From contig JANXYK010000062.1 of assembly GCA_025350055.1 (NCBI GenBank), forward strand, positions 1 through 64,000: a stretch of 64,000 bases of DNA. Reading direction: 5' to 3'. A program made the translations under genes and the position numbers. The DNA comes from Gammaproteobacteria bacterium. GTDB lineage: Bacteria; Pseudomonadota; Gammaproteobacteria; Steroidobacterales; Steroidobacteraceae. Shown one piece after another: positions 36,197 to 59,098 of this stretch; the stretch's first letter is position 1, and every line of letters begins with the position of its first letter. Under the pieces are notes generated by a model, which saw nothing but the letters and a program-made list of their open reading frames with translations, searched no databases and was not told the origin of the DNA.

Positions 36197-37063
36197 CTAC
36201 ATCGGCTCGCTGCCCGGCTTCGGGTCGGCGAGCGGGAAGGTCTTGGCGCCGTCATTGCCTGGCGCTGGCGTGGGCGCAGGCACCGCCGGTGCGCTGCCGC
36301 CCTGGCCCGGCGCGGGAGTAGCGACCGCAGGGGTTGAGCCTTGCGCCGCGGCATCACCACGGCTTGCAGGCGACAGCCCCGCAACGATCGCGGCGATGAA
36401 ACGACGCGCGGTTTCCGAATTGCTCTTTACCGAACCGCCGGTGATTTCGGCGGTGGTCACTTCACGCGCATAGAAATTCCGGTTGGCCTTGCGATCGAAA
36501 ATCAGCGCCGTGCCATCGAGGGCGACGCCGGCAAACAAGCCGCGGGCACGCGAATACGAGTAGATCTCGGCATCCTTGCCAGCCGACGCCTCGCCGCTGC
36601 GGCCCAGCGGGCCCGCGGCCACCGAAGCAGTGGCACCCAGCGTGAACTGGCCGCGCGCAAAATTCTCGAGGCTGCGCTGCGAGGCGAACACCAGCACGAT
36701 GTCTGCGGCCTGTGCGCCGATCTGCCAGCCGACGCTGCCACCGGTGAGCGAGATGAACACCGGTTCGCTGAAGCGGCCATTGGCATCACGCGAACTCAGT
36801 ACGCCATTGCCGTGCCGGCCGCCGACAAGGAGGGCACCCTTGATGACATCCGGTATCACCGCAACGCCATAGGCACGATCGAACAGCCAGTTGGGGATGC
36901 GCTGGTCGGGCGAAGCCTGCAGTTCATTCAGTACCTGCGTGGCGGTGATCAGGCGGGCGTCTTCGCGCGTCTGGGCGCCTGCCAGCGAGGGCAACAGCAG
37001 GGCGGCGAACAGTGCCGCCAGCGGAGCAATGAAGGTGGAGCGCAGTTGCGCGTACTGAGTCAT
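36197..37063 (-). CDS. Secreted SYLF-domain (DUF500) lipid-binding protein
   Basis: 288 residues: signal peptide (FIAPLAALFAALLLPSLAGA), then the SYLF domain: IPNWLFDRAYGVAVIPDVIK, GVLSSRDANGRFSEPVFISL, GGSVGWQIGAQAADIVLVFA and AEIYSYSRARGLFAGVALDG. This order is typical of the Ysc84/SYLF fold, which binds phosphoinositides in eukaryotes and probably lipids in bacteria. A Pro/Ala-rich tail of about 60 residues follows. The ATG at 37063 is preceded by GGGGAA; the frame continues upstream without support. It ends the seven-gene minus-strand unit, 53 bp after DUF3570. Confidence 0.88.
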   Translation of the reverse strand: MTQYAQLRSTFIAPLAALFAALLLPSLAGAQTREDARLITATQVLNELQASPDQRIPNWLFDRAYGVAVIPDVIKGALLVGGRHGNGVLSSRDANGRFSEPVFISLTGGSVGWQIGAQAADIVLVFASQRSLENFARGQFTLGATASVAAGPLGRSGEASAGKDAEIYSYSRARGLFAGVALDGTALIFDRKANRNFYAREVTTAEITGGSVKSNSETARRFIAAIVAGLSPASRGDAAAQGSTPAVATPAPGQGGSAPAVPAPTPAPGNDGAKTFPLADPKPGSEPM

Positions 37064-37116
37064 GAGCTTCCCCTGGTTGTGTGGCGGGTCAGTAGACCCG
37101 CAGCCGCGATGATCGT

Positions 37117-38277
37117 TCAGAACCAGGCAGAATAAAAGAGCTGGAAGACGGTAGCGTTGAGGATGAACAGCGGCTCGTTGCCCGCGCCGGCGTTGAGGTA
37201 GCGCAGATCGCGGTAGTCGTCGTAGTTGATGCGCATCCGGTCGAGGCGCAGGTTGAGTGAATTCTTCTGCAGGAAACGCGGGTGCGGCATCTGCCACGAG
37301 GCGCCCAGGCCCAGCGTCAGGCTGTGGAAGGTGGCCAGCTCGCGATCGCGCGCCATGAAGTTCTGTGCACTCGCGAAGGGGAACAGGTCGCTGTAAAAGG
37401 TGGCGTGGTTCTGGCGGTAAAAGCGCAAGTGGCCGTCAACCAGCCAGTTGTGGAACAGCGGCTGGGCGATGCCCAACTGCGCTGTATGTGCGCGTATGCC
37501 CCAGGTGTCGGCGTAGTAGCGATAGCTGCCGTCGAGCGCGCCGCGACCGGGCAGGTGGTATTTCAACTGCCACGAGCCGGCATTGCCGGTGCGCGTGTGC
37601 GGGTAGGCTTCCGATTGGGTGCCATAGCCGCGCGTTTCCTGGCCGTCGAGGTAGCGCACCTTGCGATACGGATTGTTCAGCAGGCCTTCGCTCTCGGAGG
37701 TCTCGAAATTCACGCTCAGCAGCAGTTTGCGGGTCAGGATCTGGGTCAGGCCCAGCTGCCAGTTGCGCCGGTCGGCCTCGCCATCGAGGGCGGTCTTGCC
37801 GCGCTCGCCGATCTTGTCCCAGCCGCGCACCACGCCGAAGGTGATGGTGGTCAGGTCGCCGAACATGTCTTCGCTGACCGAGGCAAACGCCGTCTTGGAC
37901 TTGAAATCGGGCTCGTCGCTGTTGATGTAGCCCGTGCTCCAGGTGGTCTTGTCCTGCAGGAAATCGACGCTCAGCGAATGCTGCTTGCGCTCTTCCTTGT
38001 AGGTGCTGGCGCCCGTGGTCGCATCGACCGAAGCGCCTGAGTAGGTATCGACGTGGCCGGTGATCTGGTCGGCGTAGTAGTTGTAGGCGACCGACACATG
38101 ATCGCCGAATTTCTTGCGCACCAGCACTGAGGGGCCTTTGATCTCGATGCCGCCACCTTTGTAGGTGTGGACCAGCACATCGGCGCGATCATCGGGCAGT
38201 ACGCCGGCCGTGGCGGTGCCCAGCAGCAGCAATGCTGCGGCAGCCAGTCGGGACAGTTTTCGGGGCATCGCGGGCAC
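37117..38277 (-). CDS. DUF3570 outer-membrane beta-barrel protein
   Basis: 386 residues: signal peptide (LSRLAAAALLLLGTATAG), then YKGGGIEIKGPSVLVRKKFG and DHVSVAYNYYADQITGHVDT YSGAS-type strands alternating with short turns (e.g. RKQHSLSVDFLQDKTTWSTG, LLLSVNFETSESEGLLNNPY), ending with an aromatic C terminus (VFQLFYSAWF) usual for barrels. The pattern matches DUF3570. The family is typically encoded next to DUF4266, as here (3 bp apart), often with the flavin transferase ApbE, which is not found in this window. Function unknown; probably an outer-membrane channel or scaffold. Confidence 0.9.
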   Translation of the reverse strand: MPAMPRKLSRLAAAALLLLGTATAGVLPDDRADVLVHTYKGGGIEIKGPSVLVRKKFGDHVSVAYNYYADQITGHVDTYSGASVDATTGASTYKEERKQHSLSVDFLQDKTTWSTGYINSDEPDFKSKTAFASVSEDMFGDLTTITFGVVRGWDKIGERGKTALDGEADRRNWQLGLTQILTRKLLLSVNFETSESEGLLNNPYRKVRYLDGQETRGYGTQSEAYPHTRTGNAGSWQLKYHLPGRGALDGSYRYYADTWGIRAHTAQLGIAQPLFHNWLVDGHLRFYRQNHATFYSDLFPFASAQNFMARDRELATFHSLTLGLGASWQMPHPRFLQKNSLNLRLDRMRINYDDYRDLRYLNAGAGNEPLFILNATVFQLFYSAWF

Positions 38278-38280
38278 GGG

Positions 38281-38514
38281 TCAGTTGCAGCCGCAGCCGC
38301 CGCCCACGCCGCCAGTGGCGCCGCGCGCACCCTCGCGTGATTCGAACACGTGATCGATGTAGGTGTTCGAGACCGGATCGCGGTTGAAGGACATTACCGC
38401 TTCGGCCAGGTGCTCGCGCTCATAGGGTTTCACCCACGGCTCGATTGGACTGCAGGCCGAGAGCGCCACCGCGCTTAAGGCCACCAGCAGCAGCAAACCG
38501 CATCGTCTAGACAT
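38281..38514 (-). CDS. DUF4266 small lipoprotein with a Gly-Cys C-terminal tail
   Basis: 77 residues: lipoprotein signal with lipobox LSAC (Cys21), then PIEPWVKPYEREHLAEAVMS and FNRDPVSNTYIDHVFESREG, and a final glycine-rich tail ending GGVGGGCGCN. This is the complete DUF4266 pattern. The two closely spaced Cys at the extreme C terminus are a family trait and suggest metal binding, cross-linking or processing. It lies 6 bp after the TlpA-like gene and 3 bp before DUF3570, so the three probably work together at the outer membrane. Confidence 0.92.
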   Translation of the reverse strand: MSRRCGLLLLVALSAVALSACSPIEPWVKPYEREHLAEAVMSFNRDPVSNTYIDHVFESREGARGATGGVGGGCGCN

Positions 38515-38520: not shown

Positions 38521-39021
38521 TCATTCCCGTATCAGTGCGCGGATCTGGTCCAGATACTCGTTCTCGGCGCCCGGCGAGTAGCCACGATGGATGTAGCGCA
38601 CCTTGCCGGTCTTATCGAGTATCACGGTGTTGGGCATGCCCTCGACCTGGTAGAGCTTACTGACTTTGCTGTCCACATCGAAGAGTATCGGGAAGGAGAC
38701 AGGTGTGGCCTTGAGCCAGTCGACCGCCGCAGCGCGGTCGGGTTCCACGTTCACGCCCACCAGCGTCACGCCTTTATTGCGGTATTGGCGGTTGAGCTGC
38801 TCGAGGATCGGCATTTCCTTGCGGCAGGGCCCGCACCAGCTGGCCCAGAAATTCACCAGCACGATCTGGCCCTTGAAGTCAGCCAGCTTCAGCGGTTTGC
38901 CGCTGCTGGACTGCAACGCAAATGCCGGTGCCGGTGCGCCAGTGCGCAGCGGATCGACCGAAGCCGCGAGCGTCGCGGCCGAGAGGGCCATCAGGCACAG
39001 GGGCAGTGCATAGCGTTTCAT
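38521..39021 (-). CDS. TlpA-family thiol:disulfide redoxin
   Basis: 166 residues: signal peptide (LPLCLMALSAATLA) then a periplasmic thioredoxin fold, APAFALQSSSGKPLKLADFK, VLVNFWASWCGPCRKEMPIL (active-site CGPC), VGVNVEPDRAAAVDWLKATP and the cis-Pro loop VEGMPNTVILDKTGKVRYIH. It should reduce or shuffle disulfides, as TlpA/ResA does for haem-ligating Cys pairs, which fits the nearby CxxCH proteins and the Cys-rich DUF4266 tail. Start ATG at 39021; upstream frame extension is unsupported. Minus-strand operon. Confidence 0.94.
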   Translation of the reverse strand: MKRYALPLCLMALSAATLAASVDPLRTGAPAPAFALQSSSGKPLKLADFKGQIVLVNFWASWCGPCRKEMPILEQLNRQYRNKGVTLVGVNVEPDRAAAVDWLKATPVSFPILFDVDSKVSKLYQVEGMPNTVILDKTGKVRYIHRGYSPGAENEYLDQIRALIRE

Positions 39022-39035: not shown

Positions 39036-39761
39036 TCAGAAGAACACGGTCGCGCCTACCTGTGCAGTCAGGTTGTTCTTCAGGCGTTCCACACCCAGCA
39101 GATCTGACTTGAATACCAGATCCTGCGCTTCGATATGGATCGCCAGCCAATCGGTAGGCAGCACATGGAAGCCAGCGCCAAAATTCACGGTGAAATGCTG
39201 ATCACCCGCAAATTTCACGCTGCCGATGCCGCCGACCAGATAGAACCCGCTGGTCATGGCGCGGTTGCGACCGAGAAACACCTCGCCAGGCAGGAAGTTG
39301 TAGCCCAGCGAGAGGTTGTAATACGTGAAGCGTCTCTCAGCATCGGTGAGCAGTTGCACATTGCCGCCCAGAGTTTCGAAGCTGGTCTTGCCGCCCTTGG
39401 CACGGGCATAATTCGCCTCGAAATAGAAGTCTTCGGTGATGTGATAATCAAAGCGCAGGCCGCTCACGGGCGCCGCGCCGAAGTCCTCGATCGAGATTTC
39501 ACCATAATAGCCACCGAGCTCGACGTTGTGGCTCTTGATCTTCGGCACCTTGATCTTGCGGCGCTCGACCTGCGGTTCGATCACCGTGGGCGGCACGGCC
39601 GCGGCCTCGGCGCTGACCGCCGCGGCGGCGTCGGCGCTCTGCGCGCCCACGGCCTTCGCGTCCTTCGCGTGGTGGCGATGGAACGGCCAATGCAGGTGCG
39701 CGCAGCCGCTGGTCGCGACGCAGACCAGGGCTAATAGAAGAACGCGAATCCGAGTTTCCAT
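39036..39761 (-). CDS. Outer-membrane beta-barrel lipoprotein (TIGR04565/OMP_myx_plus-like)
   Basis: 241 residues: lipobox TSGC (Cys20), a linker, then VELGGYYGEISIEDFGAAPV, GLRFDYHITEDFYFEANYAR, FTYYNLSLGYNFLPGEVFLG, MTSGFYLVGGIGSVKFAGDQ and FTVNFGAGFHVLPTDWLAIH, ending in aromatic VFF. This is the domain first defined in myxobacteria and found in other proteobacteria, usually as tandem pairs; here the upstream gene encodes the second member. It overlaps that gene by 31 bp. Likely an outer-membrane part of the same envelope complex. Confidence 0.88.
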   Translation of the reverse strand: METRIRVLLLALVCVATSGCAHLHWPFHRHHAKDAKAVGAQSADAAAAVSAEAAAVPPTVIEPQVERRKIKVPKIKSHNVELGGYYGEISIEDFGAAPVSGLRFDYHITEDFYFEANYARAKGGKTSFETLGGNVQLLTDAERRFTYYNLSLGYNFLPGEVFLGRNRAMTSGFYLVGGIGSVKFAGDQHFTVNFGAGFHVLPTDWLAIHIEAQDLVFKSDLLGVERLKNNLTAQVGATVFF

Positions 39762-40528
39762 TCCCGTTTTACCTCGTTGCTGTCACTCTTGGTGAACACC
39801 GTGTGGTGGCGGTATTCGACCCGCAAATAGAAGCGTCGCGCCAGGTAGTAGCGCGCGCCGATGCCCTCGTAGGCGGTCTGGTAGTTCTGGGTCACCGGCT
39901 GCACCAGCGTGCCCTTGCCCTCGGTGCGCTCGATGCCGGTGCCCAGCGTCACGAAGGGAGAGAAGCGCCAGCGCGGCATGAACACATGGTTCAAGCCCAG
40001 GTCGGCGACATAGCCGTTCGAGAGATTGCCGAGGAACTGGCCCGCGTGCAGTTCCACCTTCAGCGTGTCGGTGAGCGAGCGCGCCAAGAAGCCCTCGACC
40101 AGCGTAGCGCCGGCATAGTCGCCGGTCATCACGCCGCCTTCCCAGTGGTGCGAGCGGAAACCCTCGCGATCGCCACGATTGAAGGTGAAGGGCGAGCCAT
40201 CGGCGAGCGTGGTACGGATCATGTCGCGTTCCGAGGCCCAGCCCTCGATGCCGCGCTCGGTGCGCACCTTGAACCATTCGGTGCGGCGGAACAGCACGTC
40301 GATCGAATCGCCGCGCGCGACTACCTGGGTCACGGGATACCCGCGGCCCGGGCCGGTGTGCAGCTCGAGGTAGGGTTCGGTAACGAACAGCTGCAACAGC
40401 TCGTGCTTTGCCGCCAGTGCACGGGGCGACAGCGCGAACAGGGGCAACGCGAACAGCAGCAGCGCCAGCGGGCGCAGCCACTCAATTGAGCGGCGCGGCG
40501 AACGGATTGTTGTAATACTGGGCTCCAA
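39731..40528 (-). CDS. SH3-domain plus outer-membrane beta-barrel protein
   Basis: 265 residues: signal peptide (LALLLFALPLFALSPRALA), a bacterial SH3-like domain (YLELHTGPGRGYPVTQVVAR, WFKVRTERGIEGWASERDM) at about 45-105, then barrel strands (DTLKVELHAGQFLGNLSNGY, FSPFVTLGTGIERTEGKGTL, RFYLRVEYRHHTVF) and a C-terminal AFFY. The SH3 part could bind peptidoglycan or a periplasmic partner. It overlaps the 3' end of the HZS-alpha-like gene by 47 bp and the next barrel gene by 31 bp, so expression is tightly linked. Confidence 0.88.
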   Translation of the reverse strand: MEPSITTIRSPRRSIEWLRPLALLLFALPLFALSPRALAAKHELLQLFVTEPYLELHTGPGRGYPVTQVVARGDSIDVLFRRTEWFKVRTERGIEGWASERDMIRTTLADGSPFTFNRGDREGFRSHHWEGGVMTGDYAGATLVEGFLARSLTDTLKVELHAGQFLGNLSNGYVADLGLNHVFMPRWRFSPFVTLGTGIERTEGKGTLVQPVTQNYQTAYEGIGARYYLARRFYLRVEYRHHTVFTKSDSNEVKREWKLGFAFFY

Positions 40529-43163
40529 TATCCACCCATTCTGACAGCAAGCGCAGTTCCGCGGGAGTCATGAACCCGCTGTGATTCACGGTCCCGGTCG
40601 TGGCGCCAGAGAGTACATTAAAGAAGCTCGACGTGGCGGCCGAACCGCTATTGATGCTGGCGTTGACCTGCACGGTGGACAGCGTGAGGGTACAGGCCGT
40701 GTCGATGGAATAGCTGCCCGACACGTGACTGATGAGCAGTTGCGTGTAGGCGCGCAGCTGCGCCGTGACCTGCTGGGCCGGATCGTCATCGAGGGCCAGG
40801 CCGCCCTGCGGGTTGCCGGCCGGAATCATCACATCCATTGGCGTGGCGGAGCCCGCCGGCGTGCACTGCACGGTGCGCGCCGCCGCCGAGTGGCAGTTCA
40901 CGCAGGTGTTGGCGCCGCGATTCACCTGCCACAGCGGATGGATGTGGCCGGGCACGCTCGCGGCCGCACCGGTGCCACTCTTGTCGTAGTCGATGGTGAT
41001 CCGGCAGTTCGACGAATAGGAGTTCAGGCAGGTCTGGCTGGTGGGCAATGGCGTCGACAGGCCTGGGTTGTAGCTGTAGTCGATCGCCGTATCACCGGCC
41101 GCGCCAGTGCCCGCATATTTCACGTTGACGCTGGGCGTGGCCGCCAGGCAGTTGGTGACAGCGCAGTTGGTGGCGCTGCCGTAGATCAGCTGGGCCGCGC
41201 TCTTGCCGGTGGCATCACCGGCATTGGCCGGCGTGAACAGCCCGGTGCGGCCGTGCGCGGTCACGCTGGTCGGGGTGCGTGCATTGTGGCAGCCGTTGCA
41301 CTGGACCACCTCGCCCGGGCGCAGCTGCAGCCAGGCGCGATGCTGCGGGAAAGTAAGGATACGGCGCGCATTGGCATCGAGAATCGTCATCTGGAAGGCC
41401 ACATTCGCCGGCACCTTCACGCGCACCGAGCCATCGGCCTCGATCGGCACGTAGCCCAGGATCTCGCGCATGTAGCCGACCGAATTGTCGAGCGAGATGT
41501 TGCGATTGAAATCAGGGAAGCCGTCCTTCAGGTCCTTGTCACCCATTGATACGGCTTTCTCGAGCCGCAGAAAGCGCGCCGGGCGCGCATCGGCATTGGT
41601 CATGGCCATGGTGCTGATGAAGGCGGAATTGCTGGCAGCGCCCGCGCCGATCCACTTGGCATCGGCCCAGTCGTAGACGCTGCGGATGTCGATGATGCCC
41701 AGGCCATCACCGGCCAGTGTGCTGCCGGTGCCCACCGGTGCAACGTAGGCCGGTGGCGTACGCGCCTGCAGCGTCACCACATCGGTGAGCATCACGCCTT
41801 CGGTCGGTGCGACCACCGGCTTGAGCGTGTTGTCAGCGGGGTCGAACAGCCAGGCGCTGTACAGCGGCGGCGCCAGCTGCGGATTGGCGACCGCGAGATT
41901 CGCGGCCGTGCAGGGCACGATGGCGCCGGTGGTGTCGATCAGCCGGCACTGGCTCCAGCTCACCAGGATGCGGTTGGTGTTGTCCCACAGCGGATAGGCG
42001 CCGTTGAAGCGTCCGCCCGGCGAGGGGCCGGGAATGGTGCGCACATCGTTCGAGGTCGCAGAGCTTTGCGCCGGGCAGGGGTTGCTGCCGCCTGCGCCCA
42101 CGCCCGCCGCCAGGGTGCGCTGCGTGCACTCGACGGAGTTCACGACATCGAGCACCACGAGGTTGCCGCCGAAATCGGTGCCCGGAGCAGCCTGGCGGAT
42201 CAGCGCCATCACCTGGCCGCTCTGCATCTGCCGCGTCTTCACGAACTCGACCGGGGTCGGGAGCATCGTGACCGGGTCGGCCGTGCCCACATTGTGGCTG
42301 TGCGCGCCGTAGAGCAGTTGCAGGTCGCTGCCGTCAGGATTCATCGTATACAGGTGCATCGCGTTGGTGCCACCGGGCGCGTGATCCCAGCGCGTGTAGA
42401 GGATGCGCCCGTTGGACATTACGCTCGGGTCCAGGTCATGGCTCTGGTTGAAGGAGATCTGCTGGAAGGCGCTCGGGCCGGTGAGCGTCGGGTCGAGCAC
42501 GTTGAGCGTGAAGGCCGACTCGTCGCCATCCTCGGTCTGGGCTTCGAAGCCGCTCTTGCCTTCCTGCAGCAGCACACCCTTGGAATAGCGCTGCCGGGTC
42601 GAGCTGATCAGGATGCGCCCATAAGGATGGGTGCTGTCCGAGGGCAGGTAGTGCGGCGAGACATCCTCGCCTTCGCTGGCCGTGACATCGTCGGTGAGGC
42701 TGTGCAGGTTGTCGGCGGCGATGTCGTACTCATAGATACGCCAGGTCGGCTGCTCGAAATCCTTCATGGTCGCGACCAACGGGCCGCGCATCGCGAACAC
42801 CAGCCGCTTGCCGTCGGCAGAGACGTCCAGGTGCTTGATGTCGTAGAAATCGGTGCCGGTAATGCGCGTGGTGATGTTGCGCTCCACGCCGCTCGGTGAA
42901 GCCTTGTCGCGCAGATACACGTCGGTCTTGCTCCAGAACTTGCGCTGGTGGCGCAGGTCGTCGAGTTGGCGCAGCTTGTCGAGTGCCACCGGATCGGTGG
43001 GCAGCGTGCGCTTGATGTAGGCGATGCCAAAATCGGTGGTCGCACCGTTGCCAGTCTGGCCGCGCCCGATGTCCAGGCTCCCGCCGCTGCCGCAGGCGGC
43101 AAGGCTTATGGTCAGTGTCGCGAGCGCCAAAGCGGTGCACAGCCGACGGAATTCACGCTTCAT
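40482..43163 (-). CDS. Dihaem lipoprotein resembling hydrazine synthase alpha-type proteins
   Basis: 893 residues: lipoprotein signal (LALATLTISLAAC). The N-terminal half is a propeller-like region (DIKHLDVSADGKRLVFAMRG, SHDLDPSVMSNGRILYTRWD, HLYTMNPDGSDLQLLYGAH). The C-terminal half has c-type haem motifs CNGCH (VVQCNGCHNARTP) and CVNCH (ANTCVNCHSAAA). GRILYTRWDH and this domain order are those of proteins annotated as HZS alpha-like; hydrazine synthesis itself is not implied because the beta and gamma subunits are absent. ATG at 43163 with GAGCAG upstream. First gene of the minus-strand unit. Confidence 0.85.
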   Translation of the reverse strand: MKREFRRLCTALALATLTISLAACGSGGSLDIGRGQTGNGATTDFGIAYIKRTLPTDPVALDKLRQLDDLRHQRKFWSKTDVYLRDKASPSGVERNITTRITGTDFYDIKHLDVSADGKRLVFAMRGPLVATMKDFEQPTWRIYEYDIAADNLHSLTDDVTASEGEDVSPHYLPSDSTHPYGRILISSTRQRYSKGVLLQEGKSGFEAQTEDGDESAFTLNVLDPTLTGPSAFQQISFNQSHDLDPSVMSNGRILYTRWDHAPGGTNAMHLYTMNPDGSDLQLLYGAHSHNVGTADPVTMLPTPVEFVKTRQMQSGQVMALIRQAAPGTDFGGNLVVLDVVNSVECTQRTLAAGVGAGGSNPCPAQSSATSNDVRTIPGPSPGGRFNGAYPLWDNTNRILVSWSQCRLIDTTGAIVPCTAANLAVANPQLAPPLYSAWLFDPADNTLKPVVAPTEGVMLTDVVTLQARTPPAYVAPVGTGSTLAGDGLGIIDIRSVYDWADAKWIGAGAASNSAFISTMAMTNADARPARFLRLEKAVSMGDKDLKDGFPDFNRNISLDNSVGYMREILGYVPIEADGSVRVKVPANVAFQMTILDANARRILTFPQHRAWLQLRPGEVVQCNGCHNARTPTSVTAHGRTGLFTPANAGDATGKSAAQLIYGSATNCAVTNCLAATPSVNVKYAGTGAAGDTAIDYSYNPGLSTPLPTSQTCLNSYSSNCRITIDYDKSGTGAAASVPGHIHPLWQVNRGANTCVNCHSAAARTVQCTPAGSATPMDVMIPAGNPQGGLALDDDPAQQVTAQLRAYTQLLISHVSGSYSIDTACTLTLSTVQVNASINSGSAATSSFFNVLSGATTGTVNHSGFMTPAELRLLSEWVDIGAQYYNNPFAAPLN

Positions 43164-48799: not shown

Positions 48800-48966
48800 T
48801 CGCAACCGGCTGATCGTTCGCTGTCGCGCATCACAGACGCTCGCGGTGGTTCCATGAGCCGCCGTCTTGCCGCATTCTTCCATCATGGCTATCGCATCCG
48901 AGCTCCAGATGATGTCAAATGGCGGGCGGCGTCCGGCGCCGTTGTTCATTGCTTAAGGAGCCGCTG

Positions 48967-50240: not shown

Positions 50241-52331
50241 TTGCGGCGACCCCAGGCGCTACTGAAGCCGCTGCTGGCCAGCGGTGTCGTGGCGTTGTCG
50301 GCCCTGATCGCGTCGCCGGCACTGGCTGCGCGCGCGGCGCCCACCGACAGCCTGCCGAAGATCCGTGTCCAGGATCTGTTCTACGGCGACGTGCTGTTCC
50401 ATTTCTATGCCGGCGAAGAATTCGAAGCGCTCACGCGCCTCGAGGCCTACGAGCATTGGCAGCGCATGCCCCATCATCAACACGATGCGGCGCTGTTGGC
50501 CGGTGGCCTGTACCTCTCGCTCGGCATACACAACGAAGCGGGCAAACGCTTCGAGACACTGCTCGGCAACGATGTGCCGGTCGGCGTGCGCAACCGCGCC
50601 TGGTTCTACCTGGCCAAGGTCTGGTACACGCGCGGCTACTACGATCGCAGCGAACAATCGCTCGGGCGCATCACCGGCACGCTCACGGCGGCGCTCGAGG
50701 CTGAACGCCAGCATCTGCTGGTCAACGTGCTGATGCGCCAGAACCGCTTCGATGAAGCGGCCACACGCCTGGCTGGCTGGCAGGGCCCGCCGGACTGGAT
50801 GGCTTACGCACGCTTCAATCTCGGCGTGGCCCTGGTGCGCCAGAACCGCATGAGCGATGCCGATCCGGTGCTGACCGCGGTCGGCACCATGGAAGTGGGC
50901 GGCGAAGAGCTGCTGGCGCTGCGCGACAAGGCCAATCTCGCGCTGGGCTATGCCTGGCTGCAGGCGAACAATGCGGCCAATGCGCGCGTGGCGCTCGAGC
51001 GCGTGCGACTCACCGGGCCCTACGCCACGCGTGCGCTGCTGGGCGTGGGCTGGGCCGATGCGCAGCTCGGGCAGTTCCGCGAAGCGCTCACGCCCTGGCT
51101 GGAACTGCATGAGCGGAACCTGCTCGACGCGGCGGTGCAGGAATCCTTCCTCGCCGTGCCCTATGCCTTCAGCAAGCTGGGCGCCAATGCGCAAGCCGCC
51201 GACTACTACGAATCGGCGATCAAGTCCTTCGAGAGTGAAGCCGGCCAGATCGATGATTCGATCGTGCGCATCGGCGAAGGGCGGATGCTTGATGACCTGC
51301 TGGGTGCCGACAAGCAGGCGAAGCAACTGGGCTGGTTCTGGCAGTTGCGACAGCTCCCCGATGCGCCGCAGTCGCGCTACCTGTACGCGTTGCTGGCGGA
51401 CAACGATTTCCAGGAAGGCCTGAAAAATTACCGCGACCTGAGCTTCCTCGGCGACACGCTGACGCGCTGGGACCAGAGCATGGATGCCTTCGGCGCCATG
51501 ATCGATACGCGTGAGCGCGCCTATGCCGATCGCCTGCCGCGCACCGATGCCCTGCTGGCGAGCGATCTGCCTGCCAAGTTCCTCGCGGCGCGCGCCGCGG
51601 TGGATGCGCGCCTCACCAGCATCGAAACCGGTGATGATGTGGCGGCGCTGGGCACCGGGGCCGAGCAGAAGCAGTGGGCCAAGCTGCGCCAGCTCGAGGG
51701 TACGCTGGTGAGTGCGACGGCCGCAAATCCCGAATCCCTGCAGATCGAGCGCGACAAGCTCAAGCTGATGAAGGGCGTGCTCTACTGGCGCCTCGACAGC
51801 CAATTCAAGCAGCGCGACTACAGCCAGCGGCGTGCCTTGCGCGCGCTCGATGCAGCGCTCAACGAAGCGCAGAACCGCTGGGCGCGCGTGCAGCGCGCAC
51901 GCGGCAGCGTGCCGACCAACACGGGCGAGTTCGCCGCGCGCATTGCGGCGCTGGCGGCACGTATCGCGGCCATGCAGCAGTCGCTCAAGGATTCCGCTCA
52001 GCAGCAGAACGTGTTCCTGCAGCACCTGGCGCAGAACGAACTGCTGGCACAGAAAGAGCGCCTCGCCGCCTACCAGGTACAGGCGCGCTTCTCGCTGGCC
52101 GACATCTACGATCGCGCCAGTGCCGGCGAGCCGCGCAAGCCTGCGCCAGCGCGCGATGCGTCGAACGCGCCGGCCGCTGGCGATGGTGCGCCCAATGAGG
52201 CTGCGCCCACCGACACCGCGCCCACCGACACCGCGCCCACTGACACTGCGCCCACTGACACTGCGCCCACTGGCGCAGCGCCCAACAGCACGGCGCCGGG
52301 CGAGCCGACGCCCACAGGCAGTACGCCATGA
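50241..52331 (+). CDS. Large periplasmic TPR protein
   Basis: 696 residues: signal peptide (LLASGVVALSALIASPALAA) then helical repeats of TPR/Sel1-like type (AALLAGGLYLSLGIHNEAGK, RNRAWFYLAKVWYTRGYYDR, ARFNLGVALVRQNRMSDADP, ALLGVGWADAQLGQFREALT). A later coiled stretch (NTGEFAARIAALAARIAAMQ) precedes a low-complexity tail made of PTDTA repeats. It may act as a periplasmic scaffold. The TTG start at 50241 lies 7 bp after the previous stop and its own stop overlaps the next ATG. Confidence 0.85.
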   Translation: MRRPQALLKPLLASGVVALSALIASPALAARAAPTDSLPKIRVQDLFYGDVLFHFYAGEEFEALTRLEAYEHWQRMPHHQHDAALLAGGLYLSLGIHNEAGKRFETLLGNDVPVGVRNRAWFYLAKVWYTRGYYDRSEQSLGRITGTLTAALEAERQHLLVNVLMRQNRFDEAATRLAGWQGPPDWMAYARFNLGVALVRQNRMSDADPVLTAVGTMEVGGEELLALRDKANLALGYAWLQANNAANARVALERVRLTGPYATRALLGVGWADAQLGQFREALTPWLELHERNLLDAAVQESFLAVPYAFSKLGANAQAADYYESAIKSFESEAGQIDDSIVRIGEGRMLDDLLGADKQAKQLGWFWQLRQLPDAPQSRYLYALLADNDFQEGLKNYRDLSFLGDTLTRWDQSMDAFGAMIDTRERAYADRLPRTDALLASDLPAKFLAARAAVDARLTSIETGDDVAALGTGAEQKQWAKLRQLEGTLVSATAANPESLQIERDKLKLMKGVLYWRLDSQFKQRDYSQRRALRALDAALNEAQNRWARVQRARGSVPTNTGEFAARIAALAARIAAMQQSLKDSAQQQNVFLQHLAQNELLAQKERLAAYQVQARFSLADIYDRASAGEPRKPAPARDASNAPAAGDGAPNEAAPTDTAPTDTAPTDTAPTDTAPTGAAPNSTAPGEPTPTGSTP
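52203..52262 (+). repeat. 15-bp tandem repeat encoding PTDTA units
   Basis: Four copies of GCGCCCAC(C/T)GACAC(C/T), two of each variant, then a partial GCGCCCACTGGCGCA. The period keeps frame and encodes APTDT repeats near the C terminus of the TPR protein. The pairs of identical units suggest recent slippage. Confidence 0.9.
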
Positions 52332-55300
52332 AGCGCGCACTGCAAGTGTTGCTCGCCAGCGGCGCGCTGCTGTGCCTGCAGGGCACAGCGCTGGCGGCGA
52401 ACCCGCCGCCCAAGCGCGCCGCCACCGTCGGCGATCTGATCAAGCGCAATGTCGAGGTGCACACGGATGCGACCGTGGCAGGCAGTACGGCCAAGGCCAT
52501 GGAGGGCTACAAGCAGTTCCTCGAGCTGTCGAACGCCGATGCCAAGTTGCGCGCCCAGGCGTTGAAGCGCCTTGGCGACCTGAACCTGGAATCCGGCGAG
52601 CTCGAGCGCATGTCGAGCGAGGTCACGCAGCTGGACATGCAGGGGAACGAGGCGATCAAGCTCTATGCCACGCTGCTGAAGGCCTATCCCGACTACGCGC
52701 ACAACGACGAGGTGCTCTACCAGCTGGCGCGTGCCTATGAAACCACGGGGCAGCGCGCCCTGAACCTGGCGACGCTCGACCTGATCGTGCGCCGCTTTCC
52801 TAACAGCCGCGAGATTGCCGAGGTGCAGTTTCGCCGTGGTGAGGTGCTGTTTTCCGACCAGCGCTATGCCGACGCCCAGCAGGCCTACGAACAGGTGGTG
52901 GCGCGCGGTCCGGGCGGCTCCACGTTCTACAGCCAGAGTCTCTACAAGCACGGCTGGTCGCTATACAAGCGCTCGCAGTACGAAGAGTGCCTGGGCTCCT
53001 TTGCGAAGCTGCTCGATCGCATGCTGGCCGACAGCCGTCATGTCGGTGCAGCGCGCAACCTGGATACGCTCTCGCGCGCCGATCGTGAACTCGTCGAAGA
53101 CACGCTGCACGCGATGGGCCTCGCCTCTTCCAATCTGGATGGCGCCAAGACCCTCGATCAGCTGCTCGCCAAACGCGGTCCGACCCCTTACGCCTGGCTG
53201 CTGTATTCGCGCCTGGGCGATCTGTACGTGCAGCAGAAGCGCTACCAGGATGCGGCCAACACTTATCGCGCCTTCGTGGCGCGCGATCCGGTCGATGTGC
53301 ACGCACCTACTTTGAGCAACCAGGCGATCGCGGCCTACGCCAAGGGCGGCTTTGCCGACCTGGTGGTAGAGGGCAAGGGCGAGTACGTGCGCAGCTACGG
53401 CTTTAAGACGGCGTTCTGGAAGGGGCGCGAGCGCGGTGCCTTCCCGCAGGTGGTGGCCGAGCTCAAGAGCAACCTGAAGGATCTCGCGCAGTACTACCAC
53501 GCACAGGCGCAGAAATCGAAGAAGCTCGAGGACTACACCACGGCCGCAGGTTGGTATCGCGACTACCTGGCCTCGTTCCCGGATGATCCGGATTCGGCCG
53601 AGACCAACTACCTGCTGGCCGAGGCATTGTTCGAGAGCCATCAGTTCCCGGATGCGGCCAGCGAATACGAACACACGGCCTATGCCTATCCGATCGGTGC
53701 GCGTTCGGCGGCCGCCGGCTATGCGGCGCTGGTTGCGTACCAGAAGCAGGAAGAGCTGCTGCCCGCGGTGCAGCGTCCGGCCTGGCATGAGAAGGCCACG
53801 GCCTCGGGCGTGCATTTCGCCGAGACCTTTCCTGATCATCCCGAGAGTGCCAGCGTGCTGACGCGTGCGGCGCAGGATGTGTTCGCGCAGCACGATCTGC
53901 CGCGCTCGATCAAGCTGGCCGACTCGCTGCTGGCGCGCACGCCCCCGGTCGATGCCGCCAAACAGCGTATCGGCTGGACGATCATCGGCCAGGCACAGTT
54001 CGAGCAGGGCGTGTTCGACAAATCCGAGACCGCCTTCACGCGCGCGTTGACGGTCACGCCGCCCGCGGCGCCCGAGCATGCCGACATCACCGAACGCCTG
54101 GCAGCCGCCGTCTACAAGCAGGGCGATGCCAAGCGCAAGGCCGGCGATGATGCGGGCGCGGCCAACGATTTCCTGCGCGTCGCCACGGTGGCGCCAGCCT
54201 CGAAGGTGGTGGCCACGGCGCAATACGATGCAGCGGCCTCGCTGATCAATGCCAAGCAGTGGCCACTCGCGATCAAGGTGCTCGAGGCGTATCGCCGCGA
54301 CTACCCCAAGAGCGAATATGGCGCGGACATCACGCGCAAACTGGCGGTCGCGTATGTCGAGGCTGGGCAGGGTGCGCAGGCCGCCGCCGAATTCGAGCGC
54401 ATCGCTGCGGCGCCGGGCGAAGATCCGGCCGTGGCGCGCGAGGCCACGCTCCGTGCCGCCGATCTTTACGAAAAATCCGGCAATGGCGCGCATGCGATCA
54501 GCATGCTCGAGCAGTTCGTGCAGCACTATCCGACTCCGGTGGTCGATGCCGAGGAGGCGCGCGCGCGACTGGCCGATTTCGCCTCGCACGCCAGCAACGC
54601 CGAGCGCCTGCGCTACTGGCAGAACGAAATCGTCAAGGCCGATGCCGCGGCCGGCACGGGACGCACCGACCGCACCCGTTCGCTGGCCGCTACGGCGCGC
54701 CTGGCGCTGGCGGCACCGGCGCGCGATGCCTTCCGCGCGGTGCAGCTCACGCTGCCGCTGAAGAAATCGCTGGCAGCGAAGAAGCAGGCCATGGAGAGCG
54801 CACTCGCGGGTTACAAGGCCGTGGTGGCCTACGATGTCGCCAGCACCACGACCGCGGCCACCTATGAGATGGCGGAGATCTACCGCACGCTCGGCAAGGA
54901 CCTGCTGGCTTCCGAGCGGCCCAAGAAGCTCAGCGCCGAGGAGCTCCTGCAATTCGACTCGCTGCTCGAAGAGCAGGCCTTCCCCTTCGAGGAGCAGGCC
55001 ATCTCGATCCACGAGGTCAACGCGCATCGCGTCCACGATGGCATCTACGACGATTCGGTACGCAACAGCTACCGCGCGCTCGCCGAGCTCAAGCCCGCGC
55101 GCTATGCCAAGACCGAGACCACCAGCGATCTGTTGCGCAGCATTGCCACGCCGGCTGATGGGCAGCTGCCGCCCGCAGCGGTGGCCGATTTCACGCACGG
55201 CGTGGCCGATCTGCTCGCTGGCCGGCCCACCGACGCCGAACTCGATTTCAAGCAGATGGAATTGCAGTATCTGACGCTGGCAGAGCCCTCGGTAAACCTC

Positions 55301-55756
55301 GGCATCGTGACGCGCGATCAGAACAAGCTCGATGATTCGGCCGCCGCCTTGCAGCGCGCGACGGAACGGGCGCCCGCGAGCGCGCGCGCCTGGGACGAGC
55401 TCGGCCTGACATTGCGCCGGCAAGGCAAGTTCAAGGAGGCGCGCGTCGCCTACGAGCATGCCGTGGCCGCAGATCCCGCCTACGTCGCCGCGCATCGCAA
55501 TCTCGCCGTGCTGCTCGACCTCTATCTTGATGACCCCACGGCCGCGCTGGTGGAATTCGAGCAGTACAAGCAGTTGAGCGCTGAAGACAAGCCGGTCAGT
55601 GGCTGGATCGCCGAAGTGCGCCGCCGCGCCACACCCAAGGCGCCGCCCGCCGACGGCGCATCGTCGCCGGCCACAGCGCCGGCCGCGGCGCCTGCTGCCA
55701 CGCCCGCTACCGCGCCGGATGCTTCCGGTGCAGCCAACAAGGGAGGTGCATCGTGA
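52328..55756 (+). CDS. Very large periplasmic TPR protein
   Basis: 1142 residues: signal peptide (LQVLLASGALLCLQGTALAA), then many TPRs along nearly the whole length (YQLARAYETTGQRALNLATL, VQFRRGEVLFSDQRYADAQQ, LYSRLGDLYVQQKRYQDAAN, TNYLLAEALFESHQFPDAAS, RAWDELGLTLRRQGKFKEAR) and a Pro/Ala-rich C-terminal tail. Similar giant TPR proteins are parts of the myxobacterial Glt/Agl gliding machinery and related ExbB/ExbD loci. A scaffold across the periplasm is inferred. Start overlaps the previous stop by 4 bp. Confidence 0.88.
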   Translation: MKRALQVLLASGALLCLQGTALAANPPPKRAATVGDLIKRNVEVHTDATVAGSTAKAMEGYKQFLELSNADAKLRAQALKRLGDLNLESGELERMSSEVTQLDMQGNEAIKLYATLLKAYPDYAHNDEVLYQLARAYETTGQRALNLATLDLIVRRFPNSREIAEVQFRRGEVLFSDQRYADAQQAYEQVVARGPGGSTFYSQSLYKHGWSLYKRSQYEECLGSFAKLLDRMLADSRHVGAARNLDTLSRADRELVEDTLHAMGLASSNLDGAKTLDQLLAKRGPTPYAWLLYSRLGDLYVQQKRYQDAANTYRAFVARDPVDVHAPTLSNQAIAAYAKGGFADLVVEGKGEYVRSYGFKTAFWKGRERGAFPQVVAELKSNLKDLAQYYHAQAQKSKKLEDYTTAAGWYRDYLASFPDDPDSAETNYLLAEALFESHQFPDAASEYEHTAYAYPIGARSAAAGYAALVAYQKQEELLPAVQRPAWHEKATASGVHFAETFPDHPESASVLTRAAQDVFAQHDLPRSIKLADSLLARTPPVDAAKQRIGWTIIGQAQFEQGVFDKSETAFTRALTVTPPAAPEHADITERLAAAVYKQGDAKRKAGDDAGAANDFLRVATVAPASKVVATAQYDAAASLINAKQWPLAIKVLEAYRRDYPKSEYGADITRKLAVAYVEAGQGAQAAAEFERIAAAPGEDPAVAREATLRAADLYEKSGNGAHAISMLEQFVQHYPTPVVDAEEARARLADFASHASNAERLRYWQNEIVKADAAAGTGRTDRTRSLAATARLALAAPARDAFRAVQLTLPLKKSLAAKKQAMESALAGYKAVVAYDVASTTTAATYEMAEIYRTLGKDLLASERPKKLSAEELLQFDSLLEEQAFPFEEQAISIHEVNAHRVHDGIYDDSVRNSYRALAELKPARYAKTETTSDLLRSIATPADGQLPPAAVADFTHGVADLLAGRPTDAELDFKQMELQYLTLAEPSVNLGIVTRDQNKLDDSAAALQRATERAPASARAWDELGLTLRRQGKFKEARVAYEHAVAADPAYVAAHRNLAVLLDLYLDDPTAALVEFEQYKQLSAEDKPVSGWIAEVRRRATPKAPPADGASSPATAPAAAPAATPATAPDASGAANKGGAS

Positions 55757-56337
55757 ACCGATTCATCGTTGCAACGTTGGGTGTCTGCTGCCTGGGGCTG
55801 ATGAGCGCGTTCGGCGCCGAGCCGCAGGCGCAAACGCAAACGCAACGGCAGCCGCAAGCAGGTCCCGCGGCTCCGGCCACCGATGCCAGCGCCGCTGAGC
55901 CGGCCGTACAGACCTCCAGTGCCGCGAACGTGCCGGGAAAAGGCAAGGGGCAGGGCAATGGCAAGAGTGCGCCGGGCAAGCCTGCCGACGGCTCCAAGGC
56001 GCATGACTACATCGAACTCGAGACGATGCAGGTCACAGGCAACCGCGAGTTGCCGAATGTGATGTACGTTGTGCCCTGGAAGAAACCTGACTTGGGCGAT
56101 TTCGCCGGGCGGCCGCCCAAGAGCCTGCTCGATGAGATGCTCGCGCCAGTAGATCGCGACGTATTCCAGCGCCAGAACCGTTATTTTGCCGCCCTGCAGC
56201 CCGATGCGGCTGGCGGTGGCGCGGGCAGGGGCGCTGCGCCGGCAGCGCCTGGTGCAAAGCCCGCGGCACCGGCTAGCGCGCCTGCGGCACCCGTCACCGG
56301 GCCGGTTTCAGGGCCAGGTTCCGGGGATGAGAAGTAG
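55753..56337 (+). CDS. Small secreted low-complexity protein of the locus
   Basis: 194 residues: signal peptide (FIVATLGVCCLGLMSAFGA), a Gln/Ala/Gly/Lys-rich segment, then a short conserved-looking core ELETMQVTGNRELPNVMYVV, PWKKPDLGDFAGRPPKSLLD, EMLAPVDRDVFQRQNRYF and another Pro/Ala tail. 'QVTGNRELPNVMYVVPWK' occurs in hypothetical proteins of this gene neighbourhood as I recall it, but no function is known. GTG at 55753 with GGAGG upstream overlaps the TPR stop. Confidence 0.75.
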   Translation: MNRFIVATLGVCCLGLMSAFGAEPQAQTQTQRQPQAGPAAPATDASAAEPAVQTSSAANVPGKGKGQGNGKSAPGKPADGSKAHDYIELETMQVTGNRELPNVMYVVPWKKPDLGDFAGRPPKSLLDEMLAPVDRDVFQRQNRYFAALQPDAAGGGAGRGAAPAAPGAKPAAPASAPAAPVTGPVSGPGSGDEK

Positions 56338-56403: not shown

Positions 56404-57051
56404 ATGGAATTCTTCAGCATGATCGTTAAGTTCTTCCAGGGCGGCGGCGCGATGATGTACCCCATCGCGGTGGTGCTGGTCATCGGCGCGGCGATCGCCA
56501 TCGAGCGCTACATCGTTCTCACCGCCACCTCACTGCGCAATCGCGGTTTGTGGAACGAGATCGCTCCGCTGCTGGCACAGGGCAATTTCCAGGGTGCGGT
56601 GAAAGTCACCGGCGCTTCGGATGCCGCTATCGGCCAGATCCTGAGCTACGGCCTGGCGCGCATCGCCTCGGCGCGGCGCCGCGACGACATCGAGAAGGCC
56701 ATGGAAGAGAGCCTGATGGATATCGTGCCCAAGCTCGAGAAGCGCACCCACTACCTGGCGACCTTCGCCAACCTGGCCACCTTGCTGGGACTGCTGGGCA
56801 CGGTGGTCGGTCTGATCAACGCCTTCGCGGCGGTGGCGACCGTCAATCCTTCGGAGAAAGCTAATCTGCTCTCGGCCAGCATCTCGGTGGCCATGAACTG
56901 TACGGCCTTCGGTCTGATAACCGCGGTGCCGCTGCTGGTGATCCATGCGGTGTTGCAGACCAAGACCACGGAGCTGATCGACAGCCTGGAGATGGCCTCG
57001 GTGAAGTTCCTCAACGCGGTGACCGAGCGCAATCCGGCGCAAGCGTCCTGA
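56404..57051 (+). CDS. ExbB/TolQ/MotA-type proton channel protein
   Basis: 215 residues: first membrane helix GAMMYPIAVVLVIGAAIAIE, a cytoplasmic loop, and the conserved second/third helices HYLATFANLATLLGLLGTVV, GLINAFAAVATVNPSEKANL and ISVAMNCTAFGLITAVPLLV. This is the MotA/TolQ/ExbB family that works with ExbD/TolR to turn the proton gradient into motion. Spaced 66 bp after the small secreted protein and 51 bp before the first ExbD gene. The GLLGTV and NCTAFGL motifs place it nearer to the AglR-type than to classical TonB-ExbB, which is my impression and not tested. Confidence 0.95.
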   Translation: MEFFSMIVKFFQGGGAMMYPIAVVLVIGAAIAIERYIVLTATSLRNRGLWNEIAPLLAQGNFQGAVKVTGASDAAIGQILSYGLARIASARRRDDIEKAMEESLMDIVPKLEKRTHYLATFANLATLLGLLGTVVGLINAFAAVATVNPSEKANLLSASISVAMNCTAFGLITAVPLLVIHAVLQTKTTELIDSLEMASVKFLNAVTERNPAQAS

Positions 57052-57102: not shown

Positions 57103-57645
57103 ATGCGTCGTTCCGCAGCGGTACGAAAGTTGATGCGTCGCCAGCGCAAGCCCTCCGAGCTGCAGCTGGTATCGATGATCGACATCTTCACGGTTCTGGT
57201 GACCTTCCTGTTGATGACCGCGATCTTCTCCAGGACCGTGGTGCTCGACCTGAAACTCCCAAGCAACAACGCGAGCTTTCCGGAACTCCCCAAGGGCCTG
57301 AACCTCGAGGTGATCGTGCGTAGCAATGAGTTGACGGTCGCTGATCGCGGTACCGGGCCCTTGCGCACGCTCCCGAACACGGCCAAGGGTTATGACCTCG
57401 ATGGCCTGACCGAGTACCTGAAGTTCGTGAAATCGCGCTATCCCGACAAGACCGAGGCGACGATCCTGCTCGAGCCCGATACGCCCTACAACACGATGAT
57501 CGAGGTGATGGACCGCACCCGCGTGGTCGAGGTCAACGCCGGTCTGCAAACCGTGCAGGCCGAGTTGTTCCCCGAGGTGTCGATCGGCGATGCGCCGATT
57601 CCGGTCGGTGACGCGCCCGCTGCGGGCACTGGGGCCAAGAAATGA
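57103..57645 (+). CDS. ExbD/TolR-type biopolymer transport protein (1)
   Basis: 180 residues: a short cytoplasmic N terminus, one membrane helix with the key Asp27 in SMIDIFTVLVTFLLMTAIF, and a periplasmic domain (LEVIVRSNELTVADRG, KFVKSRYPDKTEATILLEPD, NTMIEVMDRTRVVEVNAGLQ). The membrane Asp is the proton-carrying residue of the family. Its stop overlaps the ATG of the second ExbD gene (ATGA), so the two are coupled and probably form a heterodimer, as TolR-like pairs do in gliding motors. Confidence 0.93.
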   Translation: MRRSAAVRKLMRRQRKPSELQLVSMIDIFTVLVTFLLMTAIFSRTVVLDLKLPSNNASFPELPKGLNLEVIVRSNELTVADRGTGPLRTLPNTAKGYDLDGLTEYLKFVKSRYPDKTEATILLEPDTPYNTMIEVMDRTRVVEVNAGLQTVQAELFPEVSIGDAPIPVGDAPAAGTGAKK

Positions 57646-58169
57646 GCATGTCGAACCGCGCACGGCGCATGTTGCAGCACCAGATGCGCAACAAGGCCGA
57701 TGCCGACCTCAACCTGATTCCGATGATCGACATCCTGAGCGTGATGGTGTCCTTCCTGCTGGTGTACTCGACCGAAGTCGAGGTGGTGCAGAACACCAAG
57801 AGCATCGACATCCCGCAGTCGATCTCCGAGCTACGGCCACGCGAGACCGTGGTGGTGATGGTGACCAGGGACGAGCTGTTCGTGCAGGGCGAGCGCATCG
57901 CCGCGATCAGCGAGATCACCGCCAGCCCCGATCCGATCATCAAGGCGCTGAGTATCGCGCTCAAGCGCCCCAAGCTCGTCGGGCAGGCGATGACCGAGAA
58001 GGACATCGCCGAGCGCGAGATCACGCTGATGGCCGACAAGGGTATGCCCTACGAGATACTCAAGAAGGTCATGGGCACCTGCACGGATGCCGACTACGGA
58101 CGTATTTCCTTTGCCTTGCTGCAGAAAGACCGCCCCGTCGACATGGCGAAACTGCGGCATAGCTTGTAG
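57642..58169 (+). CDS. ExbD/TolR-type biopolymer transport protein (2)
   Basis: 175 residues: membrane helix with Asp30 in LIPMIDILSVMVSFLLVYS, then a periplasmic part (SIDIPQSISELRPRETVVVM, DELFVQGERIAAISEITASP, MADKGMPYEILKKVMGTCTD, YGRISFALLQKD). It diverges from the first copy beyond the membrane segment, so the two are not a recent duplication. The next gene follows after 2 bp. Confidence 0.93.
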   Translation: MSMSNRARRMLQHQMRNKADADLNLIPMIDILSVMVSFLLVYSTEVEVVQNTKSIDIPQSISELRPRETVVVMVTRDELFVQGERIAAISEITASPDPIIKALSIALKRPKLVGQAMTEKDIAEREITLMADKGMPYEILKKVMGTCTDADYGRISFALLQKDRPVDMAKLRHSL

Positions 58170-58171
58170 CG

Positions 58172-59098
58172 ATGAAGGCGGAGAACCCTACGGTGCAGCT
58201 TACCCAGTATTACCGCAGCTACGAACTCCCCTGGGAGAATTACCCGGAGGACCAGAATCGCTTCCGGCGCTTGCTGCTGATCGGTCTCGTGACTGTGGCG
58301 GTGCTCGGCCTGGTGCTGCCCTTCATCCATCTGCCCAAGAGCCTGATCAGCGCCGAGGAGGCGGTGCCGCCGCGCCTGGCCCGGCTGATGGCGCAGGAAA
58401 AACCCAAGCCGCCGACGCCGCCGAAGGCAATCGAGCAGCCCAAGCCCGAGGCCAAGCCGAAACCCACCGACGTTCCCAAACCCGTGGACGTGCGCAAAAA
58501 GGTGGAAAACTCGGCCGCGATGCGCGCGATCAAGGACGAGCTCGCCGACCTGCGCGACCAGATGGACACCAGCCAGCTGCAGAATCGCAAGCTGACGGCA
58601 GCCGCGGGCCAGGACAATCGCTCGGAGCGCTCGCTCATCTCCTCGAAGGTGGGCACCGGTTCGAATGGCATCGTCACGGCGAATGCCAGCCGTGGCTTTG
58701 GTTCCGGCGCCGGTGCACTCTCGGATCACAACACGGTAGGCGTGAATTCGAACATCGCGAACGATGCCGCGCGCAACCGCGCCACGCGCGTCGGCAATAG
58801 CGGCAAGGCTGCACGCAGCCAGGAAGAGATCGAGCTGATGTTCGATCGCAACAAGGGCGCGATCTACGCGCTCTACAGCCGCGCAACGCGCGAGCGCGCC
58901 GACTTGCAGGGCAAGCTGGTACTGCAGCTGACGATCGCGCCCTCGGGCGAGGTCACCGATTGCCGTGTGCTCAGCAGCGAGCTGAACGATCCGGAGCTGG
59001 AGAGCAAGATCGTCGGGCGCGTGCGGCTGTTCCGCTTCGAGGCCAAGGATGTCGAGGCGATGACCGGGCGTAAGACCATCGAGTTCTTCCCGACCTGA
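58172..59098 (+). CDS. TonB-like energy transducer with AgmX/PglI C-terminal domain
   Basis: 308 residues: cytoplasmic start, one membrane helix (RRLLLIGLVTVAVLGLVLPF) near 33-52, a Pro/Lys-rich spacer (EKPKPPTPPKAIEQPKPEAK and onward) typical of TonB-type proteins, and a C-terminal domain from about 220: EEIELMFDRNKGAIYALYSR, LQGKLVLQLTIAPSGEVTDC, LEAKDVEAMTG-like FRFEAKDVEAMTGRKTIEFF. That end matches the AgmX/PglI C-terminal domain family. It would carry energy from the ExbB/ExbD motor to outer-membrane partners. Last gene of the plus-strand unit. Confidence 0.9.
   Translation: MKAENPTVQLTQYYRSYELPWENYPEDQNRFRRLLLIGLVTVAVLGLVLPFIHLPKSLISAEEAVPPRLARLMAQEKPKPPTPPKAIEQPKPEAKPKPTDVPKPVDVRKKVENSAAMRAIKDELADLRDQMDTSQLQNRKLTAAAGQDNRSERSLISSKVGTGSNGIVTANASRGFGSGAGALSDHNTVGVNSNIANDAARNRATRVGNSGKAARSQEEIELMFDRNKGAIYALYSRATRERADLQGKLVLQLTIAPSGEVTDCRVLSSELNDPELESKIVGRVRLFRFEAKDVEAMTGRKTIEFFPT

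Follow-up and report, generated by a model that had tools for sequence, protein, structure and literature searches.

A divergent 23-kb locus at positions 36197–59098 of a 64,000-nucleotide stretch of gammaproteobacterial DNA (the window; GenBank assembly GCA_025350055.1, contig JANXYK010000062.1) combines genes for a putative proton-driven envelope motor, resembling the core of the Agl/Glt gliding machinery, with genes for haem proteins and for predicted flavin-carrying outer-membrane proteins. On balance, we lean towards reading the locus as one system, in which the motor serves redox clients by assembling, displaying or gating a surface redox complex. This reading draws on gene content, conserved linkage, co-inheritance, flavin-site and haem motifs and a dependence of clients on motor that is not reciprocated, all of which were observed by computation; from them we infer a physical complex, its position at the outer face, the direction of electron flow and the action of the motor on its client. 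The source assembly comprises 3.29 Mb in 76 contigs, and the nearest relatives with a name are metagenome assemblies of Gammaproteobacteria and Steroidobacteraceae, with cultured Steroidobacter and Peristeroidobacter among the more distant ones.

The locus contains 19 genes, 12 on the plus strand and seven on the minus strand (Table 1). This gene content and its coordinates had been proposed in a first-pass annotation made from the sequence alone, and both were confirmed by open reading frame (ORF) calling, GC content at third codon positions (GC3) and matches to Pfam and NCBIfam models. The 316-bp divergent region described there also holds, given likely starts at 43163 for the gene of a dihaem lipoprotein resembling the alpha subunit of hydrazine synthase (HZS-alpha) and at 43480 for the monohaem gene, as does the statement that most intergenic gaps are shorter than 70 bp or overlaps, with one clear exception of 119 bp (48800–48918). 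The minus-strand genes had been named correctly, although the known flavinylation module of ApbE, DUF3570, DUF4266 and thioredoxin had gone unrecognized, and of the two adjacent barrels called a tandem OMP_myx_plus pair only one scores above the family cut-off.

To follow linkage between the two halves, we compared 80 loci, mostly from metagenome assemblies and with few named species, using as a marker the coiled-coil gene (CC) that adjoins the first tetratricopeptide repeat (TPR) gene, TPR1. All 19 genes occur in the same order in four relatives (G003, G011, G008 and G023). Two relatives from other families (G038 and G028) have the haem trio inverted, and their genes from HZS-alpha to DUF3570 lie on the motor strand, pointing at the motor operon. 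A single strand carries HZS-alpha, the SH3 barrel, OMP_myx_plus, TlpA, DUF4266, DUF3570 and the motor in G033, L121 and L134, headed in the latter two by ApbE in an array from ApbE to AgmX, and portions of the same order were found on shorter contigs (L124 and L142). Among the 80 loci, at least four distinct arrangements hold the motor and the flavin/haem genes together.

The first-pass annotation had raised the concern that the halves might rarely be neighbours elsewhere; instead, haem genes lie no more than 10 kb upstream in 40 of the 48 loci with enough upstream DNA, DUF3570 only in three and neither in five. All five genomes of the last group (Steroidobacter agaridevorans, S. gossypii, Peristeroidobacter soli and two assemblies) encode HZS-alpha elsewhere, within an intact nine-gene haem/flavin cluster. 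The two clusters likewise still co-occur on separate contigs or far apart in G017, G030, G211, G111 and G233, as they do in the three named species. Downstream, the full motor, including adjacent genes for ExbB and two ExbD subunits, is present in 46 of the 47 loci with enough DNA, and the eight-gene motor block is conserved even without the payload (G034 and G039). In Steroidobacter, genes resembling a Ser/Thr kinase and a sigma factor stand between SYLF and the motor (L140:4219-7571, L145:4099-7565 and G017 17916-21238), and a similar pair is found at 11070–14684 of the window.

Co-inheritance was assessed in 275 genomes sampled evenly across the class Gammaproteobacteria, with the motor scored by CC and with Fisher p values that disregard shared ancestry. 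CC was present in 62 genomes, HZS-alpha in 41, DUF3570 in 75 and the twin-arginine translocation (Tat) protein of the locus in 38. Nearly all HZS-alpha genomes contained the motor (39/41, p = 1e-28) and DUF3570 (40/41, p = 4e-26), and the motor was also present in 52 of the 75 DUF3570 genomes (p = 9e-28) and in 36 of the 38 with the Tat protein. HZS-alpha is spread over about 28 families; at least four of these (f57, f133, f137 and f162) include one sampled genome with both motor and HZS-alpha and another with neither. At least 23 of the 62 motor genomes encode ApbE no more than 13.3 kb from CC. These comparisons indicate that the two halves are not linked by accident.

The dependence runs in one direction: HZS-alpha occurred without the motor in 2/41 genomes, whereas the motor occurred without HZS-alpha in 23/62. 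It also differs by motor class, with HZS-alpha in 35 of the 38 genomes whose motors best match that of the window and in 4/24 of the rest. A second concern of the first-pass annotation, that haem genes might be absent from most copies of the motor, does not apply to the window's class, where 40 of the 48 informative loci have haem genes nearby and the five with neither haem nor flavin genes nearby have HZS-alpha elsewhere in the genome, but does apply to the other class. Since they are mostly absent from the lower-scoring class and almost never found without a motor, the haem proteins look like clients rather than motor parts. The single energised complex proposed earlier, which would export, assemble or move surface redox or lectin proteins, is retained as far as the halves are neighbours or co-occur, and modified in the role given to the haem genes.

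The candidate flavin site lies in DUF3570, for which sequence motifs suggest covalently bound flavin mononucleotide (FMN). An AlphaFold model from eight sequences (mean predicted local distance difference test score (pLDDT) 79) is a 16-strand barrel, and by strand count, with both ends set in the periplasm, it places the motif loop (residues 76–91) on the outer side, where the remaining long loops also lie. The top 50 listed Foldseek matches of this model were all outer-membrane barrels, with nothing more specific. The C-terminal CGCN of DUF4266 is kept in 12/12 relatives. The genome's own apbE lies on the same contig, 17 kb beyond the window end (C57:80931-81761); L114, L121, L134, L142, L148, L150 and L151 have an ApbE gene close to the motor or haem genes, and ApbE is encoded about 12–13 kb from the haem cluster in S. 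agaridevorans, S. gossypii and Peristeroidobacter soli. Three loci are informative about how these parts are grouped: L136, L146 and L149 retain the motor together with DUF3570 and the barrel pair, while their genomes have no HZS-alpha and the DUF3570 at that place has lost its flavin motifs, although two of the three still encode some ApbE. From this pattern, the barrels appear to belong with the motor, and flavin and haem to be gained and lost together.

The haem-motif cysteines and histidines of the HZS-alpha-like protein are kept in at least 38 of 39 homologues, the single CxxCH of the monohaem protein in 49/49 and both CxxCH of the LamG lipoprotein in 49/52. Lipobox patterns were found in 44/49 HZS-alpha-like and 47/54 LamG homologues; in most cases Ser or Gly follows the Cys, consistent with sorting to the outer membrane. 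In a profile search, the HZS-alpha-like protein matched hydrazine synthase alpha (PDB 5c2v chain A, E = 3e-19) over parts of the propeller, the first, CxGCH haem domain and the C-terminal haem domain, which align in the same order. Hydrazine synthesis as its function was considered and rejected, given 45 bits against an equivalog cut-off of 800. No hzsB or hzsC (beta and gamma) matches were found among the locus proteins scanned, and no invariant Tyr follows the first haem motif within 26 residues in the homologues. HZS-like proteins beyond anammox bacteria have been suggested to form a wider enzyme family (PMC10732223). The monohaem protein weakly matches PSD2 and marginally PSCyt3 of the planctomycete-type PSD cytochromes (DUF1585/DUF1588); unlike these, it matches in its C-terminal part only and shares an operon with an envelope motor. 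Its PDB profile search returned only marginal, unrelated matches.

The Tat protein, whose twin arginine is invariant, had been called DUF1501-like, a name we do not retain: 0/19 aligned members match DUF1501, and the window member has no Pfam match. Foldseek matches were weak and nearly all to the alkaline-phosphatase/sulfatase superfamily (best E = 0.012), the PDB profile search was empty, and the predicted fold leans weakly towards that superfamily. Six homologues have one internal stop codon in the match (G051:C5:18939, G017:C9:56293, G216:C11:44077, G080:C28:14773, G073:C23:23986 and G134:C98:6545), possibly where the match overruns the gene end. Between the Tat gene and ApbE or TlpA, some relatives carry a methyltransferase gene (Trm112-like zinc ribbon, carnosine-methyltransferase match; L151:6869-8230, also L116, L127 and L129).

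On the motor side, the resemblance to Agl/Glt machinery noted in the first-pass annotation is supported for the core by sequence models. As in that core, one ExbB-like and two ExbD-like subunits are encoded side by side, and the AgmX/PglI (GltG-like) TonB-C transducer exceeds the NF033768 cut-off (56 bits against 40) while missing the full GltG equivalog cut-off. Among profile models, the GltE model is weakly matched by TPR2 (7e-6) and no such model by TPR1; CC has no Pfam match and an empty PDB profile search. After agmX, an ORF on the plus strand (59112–59987) has no Pfam match, and its last 120 residues are conserved beside the motor within its own family.

A candidate promoter element was found between the HZS-alpha and monohaem genes. 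In this gap, 27 relatives share GAGACATT and TATA(G/T)T, separated by a constant 29–30 bp. A matrix built from them recovered this element in the corresponding gap of eight further clusters outside the training set, including unlinked haem clusters. Across the 64-kb window a single site scored 12 or more, and it lies inside the divergent gap. The element is found at most haem clusters but at none of the scanned loci with a motor and no haem genes, which does not support the idea of a shared promoter element controlling unlinked motor operons; it appears instead to mark haem clusters.

These observations can be assembled into a mechanism. ExbB and the two ExbD subunits would use the proton gradient to move the AgmX/TonB-type rod, which would work on the outer membrane via CC, TPR1, TPR2 and the small secreted protein, an Agl/Glt-type core. 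The OMP_myx_plus/SH3 barrel pair and the DUF3570 barrel would form the outer-membrane parts, with DUF3570 carrying two FMN groups, added by ApbE, in its outer-side loop and exchanging thiol electrons with the TlpA-like proteins and the CxC lipoprotein DUF4266. The part that transfers electrons and binds substrate may sit at the outer face and consist of the monohaem protein, the Tat protein and the two dihaem lipoproteins (HZS-alpha-like and LamG). The motor would then assemble, display or gate this redox complex at the surface, and electrons would pass between the periplasm and an outside substrate. Across many Gammaproteobacteria the motor is inherited along with outer-membrane flavin and haem proteins, and its role may accordingly be to serve a surface electron-transfer complex. 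More specifically, we tentatively propose a proton motor of the gliding lineage with a trans-outer-membrane electron-transfer client, composed of a flavin-bearing barrel whose FMN groups face outward and of HZS-alpha-like haem lipoproteins, in which proton motive force may power the assembly or working of extracellular redox chemistry.

Several points weigh against a motor with redox clients. Its support comes from sequences and models, and the surface position of the lipoproteins is predicted. The window has no apbE adjoining DUF3570, and the strict [S/T]GA[S/T] pair seen in the window gives way in most relatives to the looser S[S/N/G]AS...[S/T]xAS. The flavin loop has a pLDDT below 50 and, at such low model confidence, could fold into the barrel. 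Finally, because the genomes are related, the Fisher p values are too small. Shared ancestry among many relatives would also suit an accidental neighbourhood, in which two independent gene sets happen to be co-inherited, as would the lower-similarity motor class that mostly has no haem set. However, the linkage survives rearrangement, the co-occurrence survives unlinking and the motor accompanies nearly every HZS-alpha gene in the class-wide sample, and we regard chance as very improbable.

Other functions for the motor are also conceivable. It could energise TonB-like import through the outer-membrane barrels, with the haem and Tat proteins processing the substrate outside or in the periplasm. 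While the ExbB-ExbD-ExbD-TonB layout, the barrels in the same locus and the TonB_C match favour this, no intact TonB-dependent receptor was found in the locus (the sole nearby one is in pieces and outside the conserved set), the barrels are without a plug domain by Pfam, and ExbB scores 41 bits against an ExbB equivalog cut-off of 206 and far below that of TolQ, which leaves uptake unlikely. Slightly less likely still is the traffic of a surface polymer, as in Myxococcus Nfs, with the redox proteins modifying or cross-linking the moved polymer and the LamG protein acting as a lectin. Agl-Nfs transports spore-coat polymer over the cell surface, and its core is regarded as a basal transport machine (Wartel 2013, PMC3858216); the LamG domain and a sulfotransferase gene nearby in the window are in keeping with such a role, but comparison of window genes with relatives, whose neighbours are annotated in part, showed no polysaccharide gene recurring with the motor. 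Least credible of all is a Myxococcus-type gliding motility machine. The Agl/Glt-like core parts and the OMP_myx_plus barrel recall one, yet full-length GltI/GltJ-like proteins were not found in the locus, where only weak C-terminal matches occur, and the core is reported (Luciano 2011, PMC3169522) to be insufficient for motility and present in bacteria not known to glide.

Table 1 Features of the divergent locus, with positions in the window and the main evidence for each.
Feature	Position	Strand	Evidence
SYLF/Ysc84 secreted protein	36197..37063	-	PF04366 E 7e-37; syntenic in relatives; flanks many locus versions
DUF3570 outer-membrane barrel, two predicted flavinylation motifs (SGAS, TGAS)	37117..38277	-	PF12094 E 7e-46
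DUF4266 small lipoprotein, C-terminus CGCN (CxC)	38281..38514	-	PF14086 E 5e-21
TlpA-like periplasmic thioredoxin	38521..39021	-	PF08534/PF00578
OMP_myx_plus barrel protein with lipobox	39036..39761	-	TIGR04565 150 bits (cut-off 60)
SH3-domain and barrel protein, partner of OMP_myx_plus barrel	39731..40528	-	PF08239 E 3e-9; TIGR04565 20 bits, below cut-off
Dihaem lipoprotein, HZS-alpha domain order, two CxxCH	40482..43163	-	PF18582 E 3e-15
Divergent regulatory gap, 316 bp	43164..43479	.	Start choice
Promoter-like element TGAGACA-N-TATATT, conserved	43402..43438	+	Matrix scan
Monohaem secreted protein, PSD2/DUF1585-like C-terminus	43480..44658	+	PF07624 in 12/15 homologues
Dihaem LamG lipoprotein	44684..47182	+	PF13385 E 6e-18
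Tat-exported protein, probably distant alkaline-phosphatase/sulfatase superfamily	47201..48799	+	Twin arginine; weak Foldseek matches
Second redoxin/TlpA-like protein	48919..49473	+	PF00578 E 6e-27
Coiled-coil and beta-domain secreted protein (CC), opens motor block	49520..50233	+	Alignment
TPR-like secreted protein 1 (TPR1)	50241..52331	+	Syntenic in relatives
Large TPR protein 2 (TPR2)	52328..55756	+	Many TPR matches; weak GltE-model match
Small secreted protein, conserved C-terminal region	55753..56337	+	Residues ~82-148 kept in relatives
ExbB/TolQ-type proton channel subunit	56404..57051	+	PF01618 E 3e-28
ExbD/TolR-type subunit 1	57103..57645	+	PF02472 E 5e-14; membrane Asp in MIDIF
ExbD/TolR-type subunit 2	57642..58169	+	PF02472 E 4e-15; membrane Asp in MIDIL
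AgmX/PglI-TonB transducer	58172..59098	+	NF033768 56 bits (cut-off 40); TonB_C; weak C-terminal GltG, GltJ model matches

Three further plus-strand regions precede the locus in the window. At 24286–28947, a row of genes encodes a catalase-peroxidase, a protein that weakly matches Cu2_monoox_C and has a single CxxC-type start region, and a SCO1/SenC protein. A TPR-sulfotransferase fusion (Sulfotransfer_3 and many TPR matches) occupies 31857–33854, and at 33957–36048 a TonB-dependent receptor is split over separate short ORFs that match Plug and barrel models, reflecting either a broken gene or assembly errors.

Both halves of the locus are separately known. An Agl/Glt core complex of unknown function has been described in one region of gammaproteobacterial genomes, as seven genes plus one (PMC3169522), a count with which the eight-gene motor block agrees, the two being likened by description. 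That region, like the window, combines one ExbB-like and two ExbD-like proteins with a TonB-C/AgmX-type transducer and periplasmic TPR proteins. Among the locus proteins there was no full-length match to the gliding-specific parts of the Agl/Glt machinery (GltI/GltJ and polarity factors), and the portions of the Luciano and Wartel papers used here do not mention fixed flavin or haem outer-membrane partners. If the proposed reading is true, it would provide a first function for a core that, according to the 2011 work, stands alone in many Gammaproteobacteria without a known job. The association also gives a common setting to DUF3570 flavin proteins and non-anammox HZS-alpha-like proteins, and one main motor class tied to a defined flavin and haem outer-membrane set is available in cultured S. 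agaridevorans, S. gossypii and Peristeroidobacter soli, which are amenable to gene removal.

The flavin half corresponds to the ApbE/DUF3570/DUF4266/thioredoxin module already described (Meheust 2021, PMC8238504). The window matches that module in its DUF3570 with two [S/T]GA[S/T] motifs (SGAS and TGAS), its DUF4266 with a C-terminal CxC and its thioredoxin-like protein; apbE, which belongs to the same cluster in the described module, is missing from the window cluster but is found nearby in relatives. The first-pass annotation had known of no described system with the full set; we found no paper joining the motor and flavin/haem halves (subscription journals were mostly beyond the search). 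Each half had been described, and the first-pass annotation had overlooked the earlier work on the motor core in Gammaproteobacteria. What distinguishes the window set from the Meheust module is its association with a proton-driven envelope motor and with haem lipoproteins of the HZS-alpha-like and LamG kinds, and this tie between one large motor class and a flavin–haem payload appears to be new.

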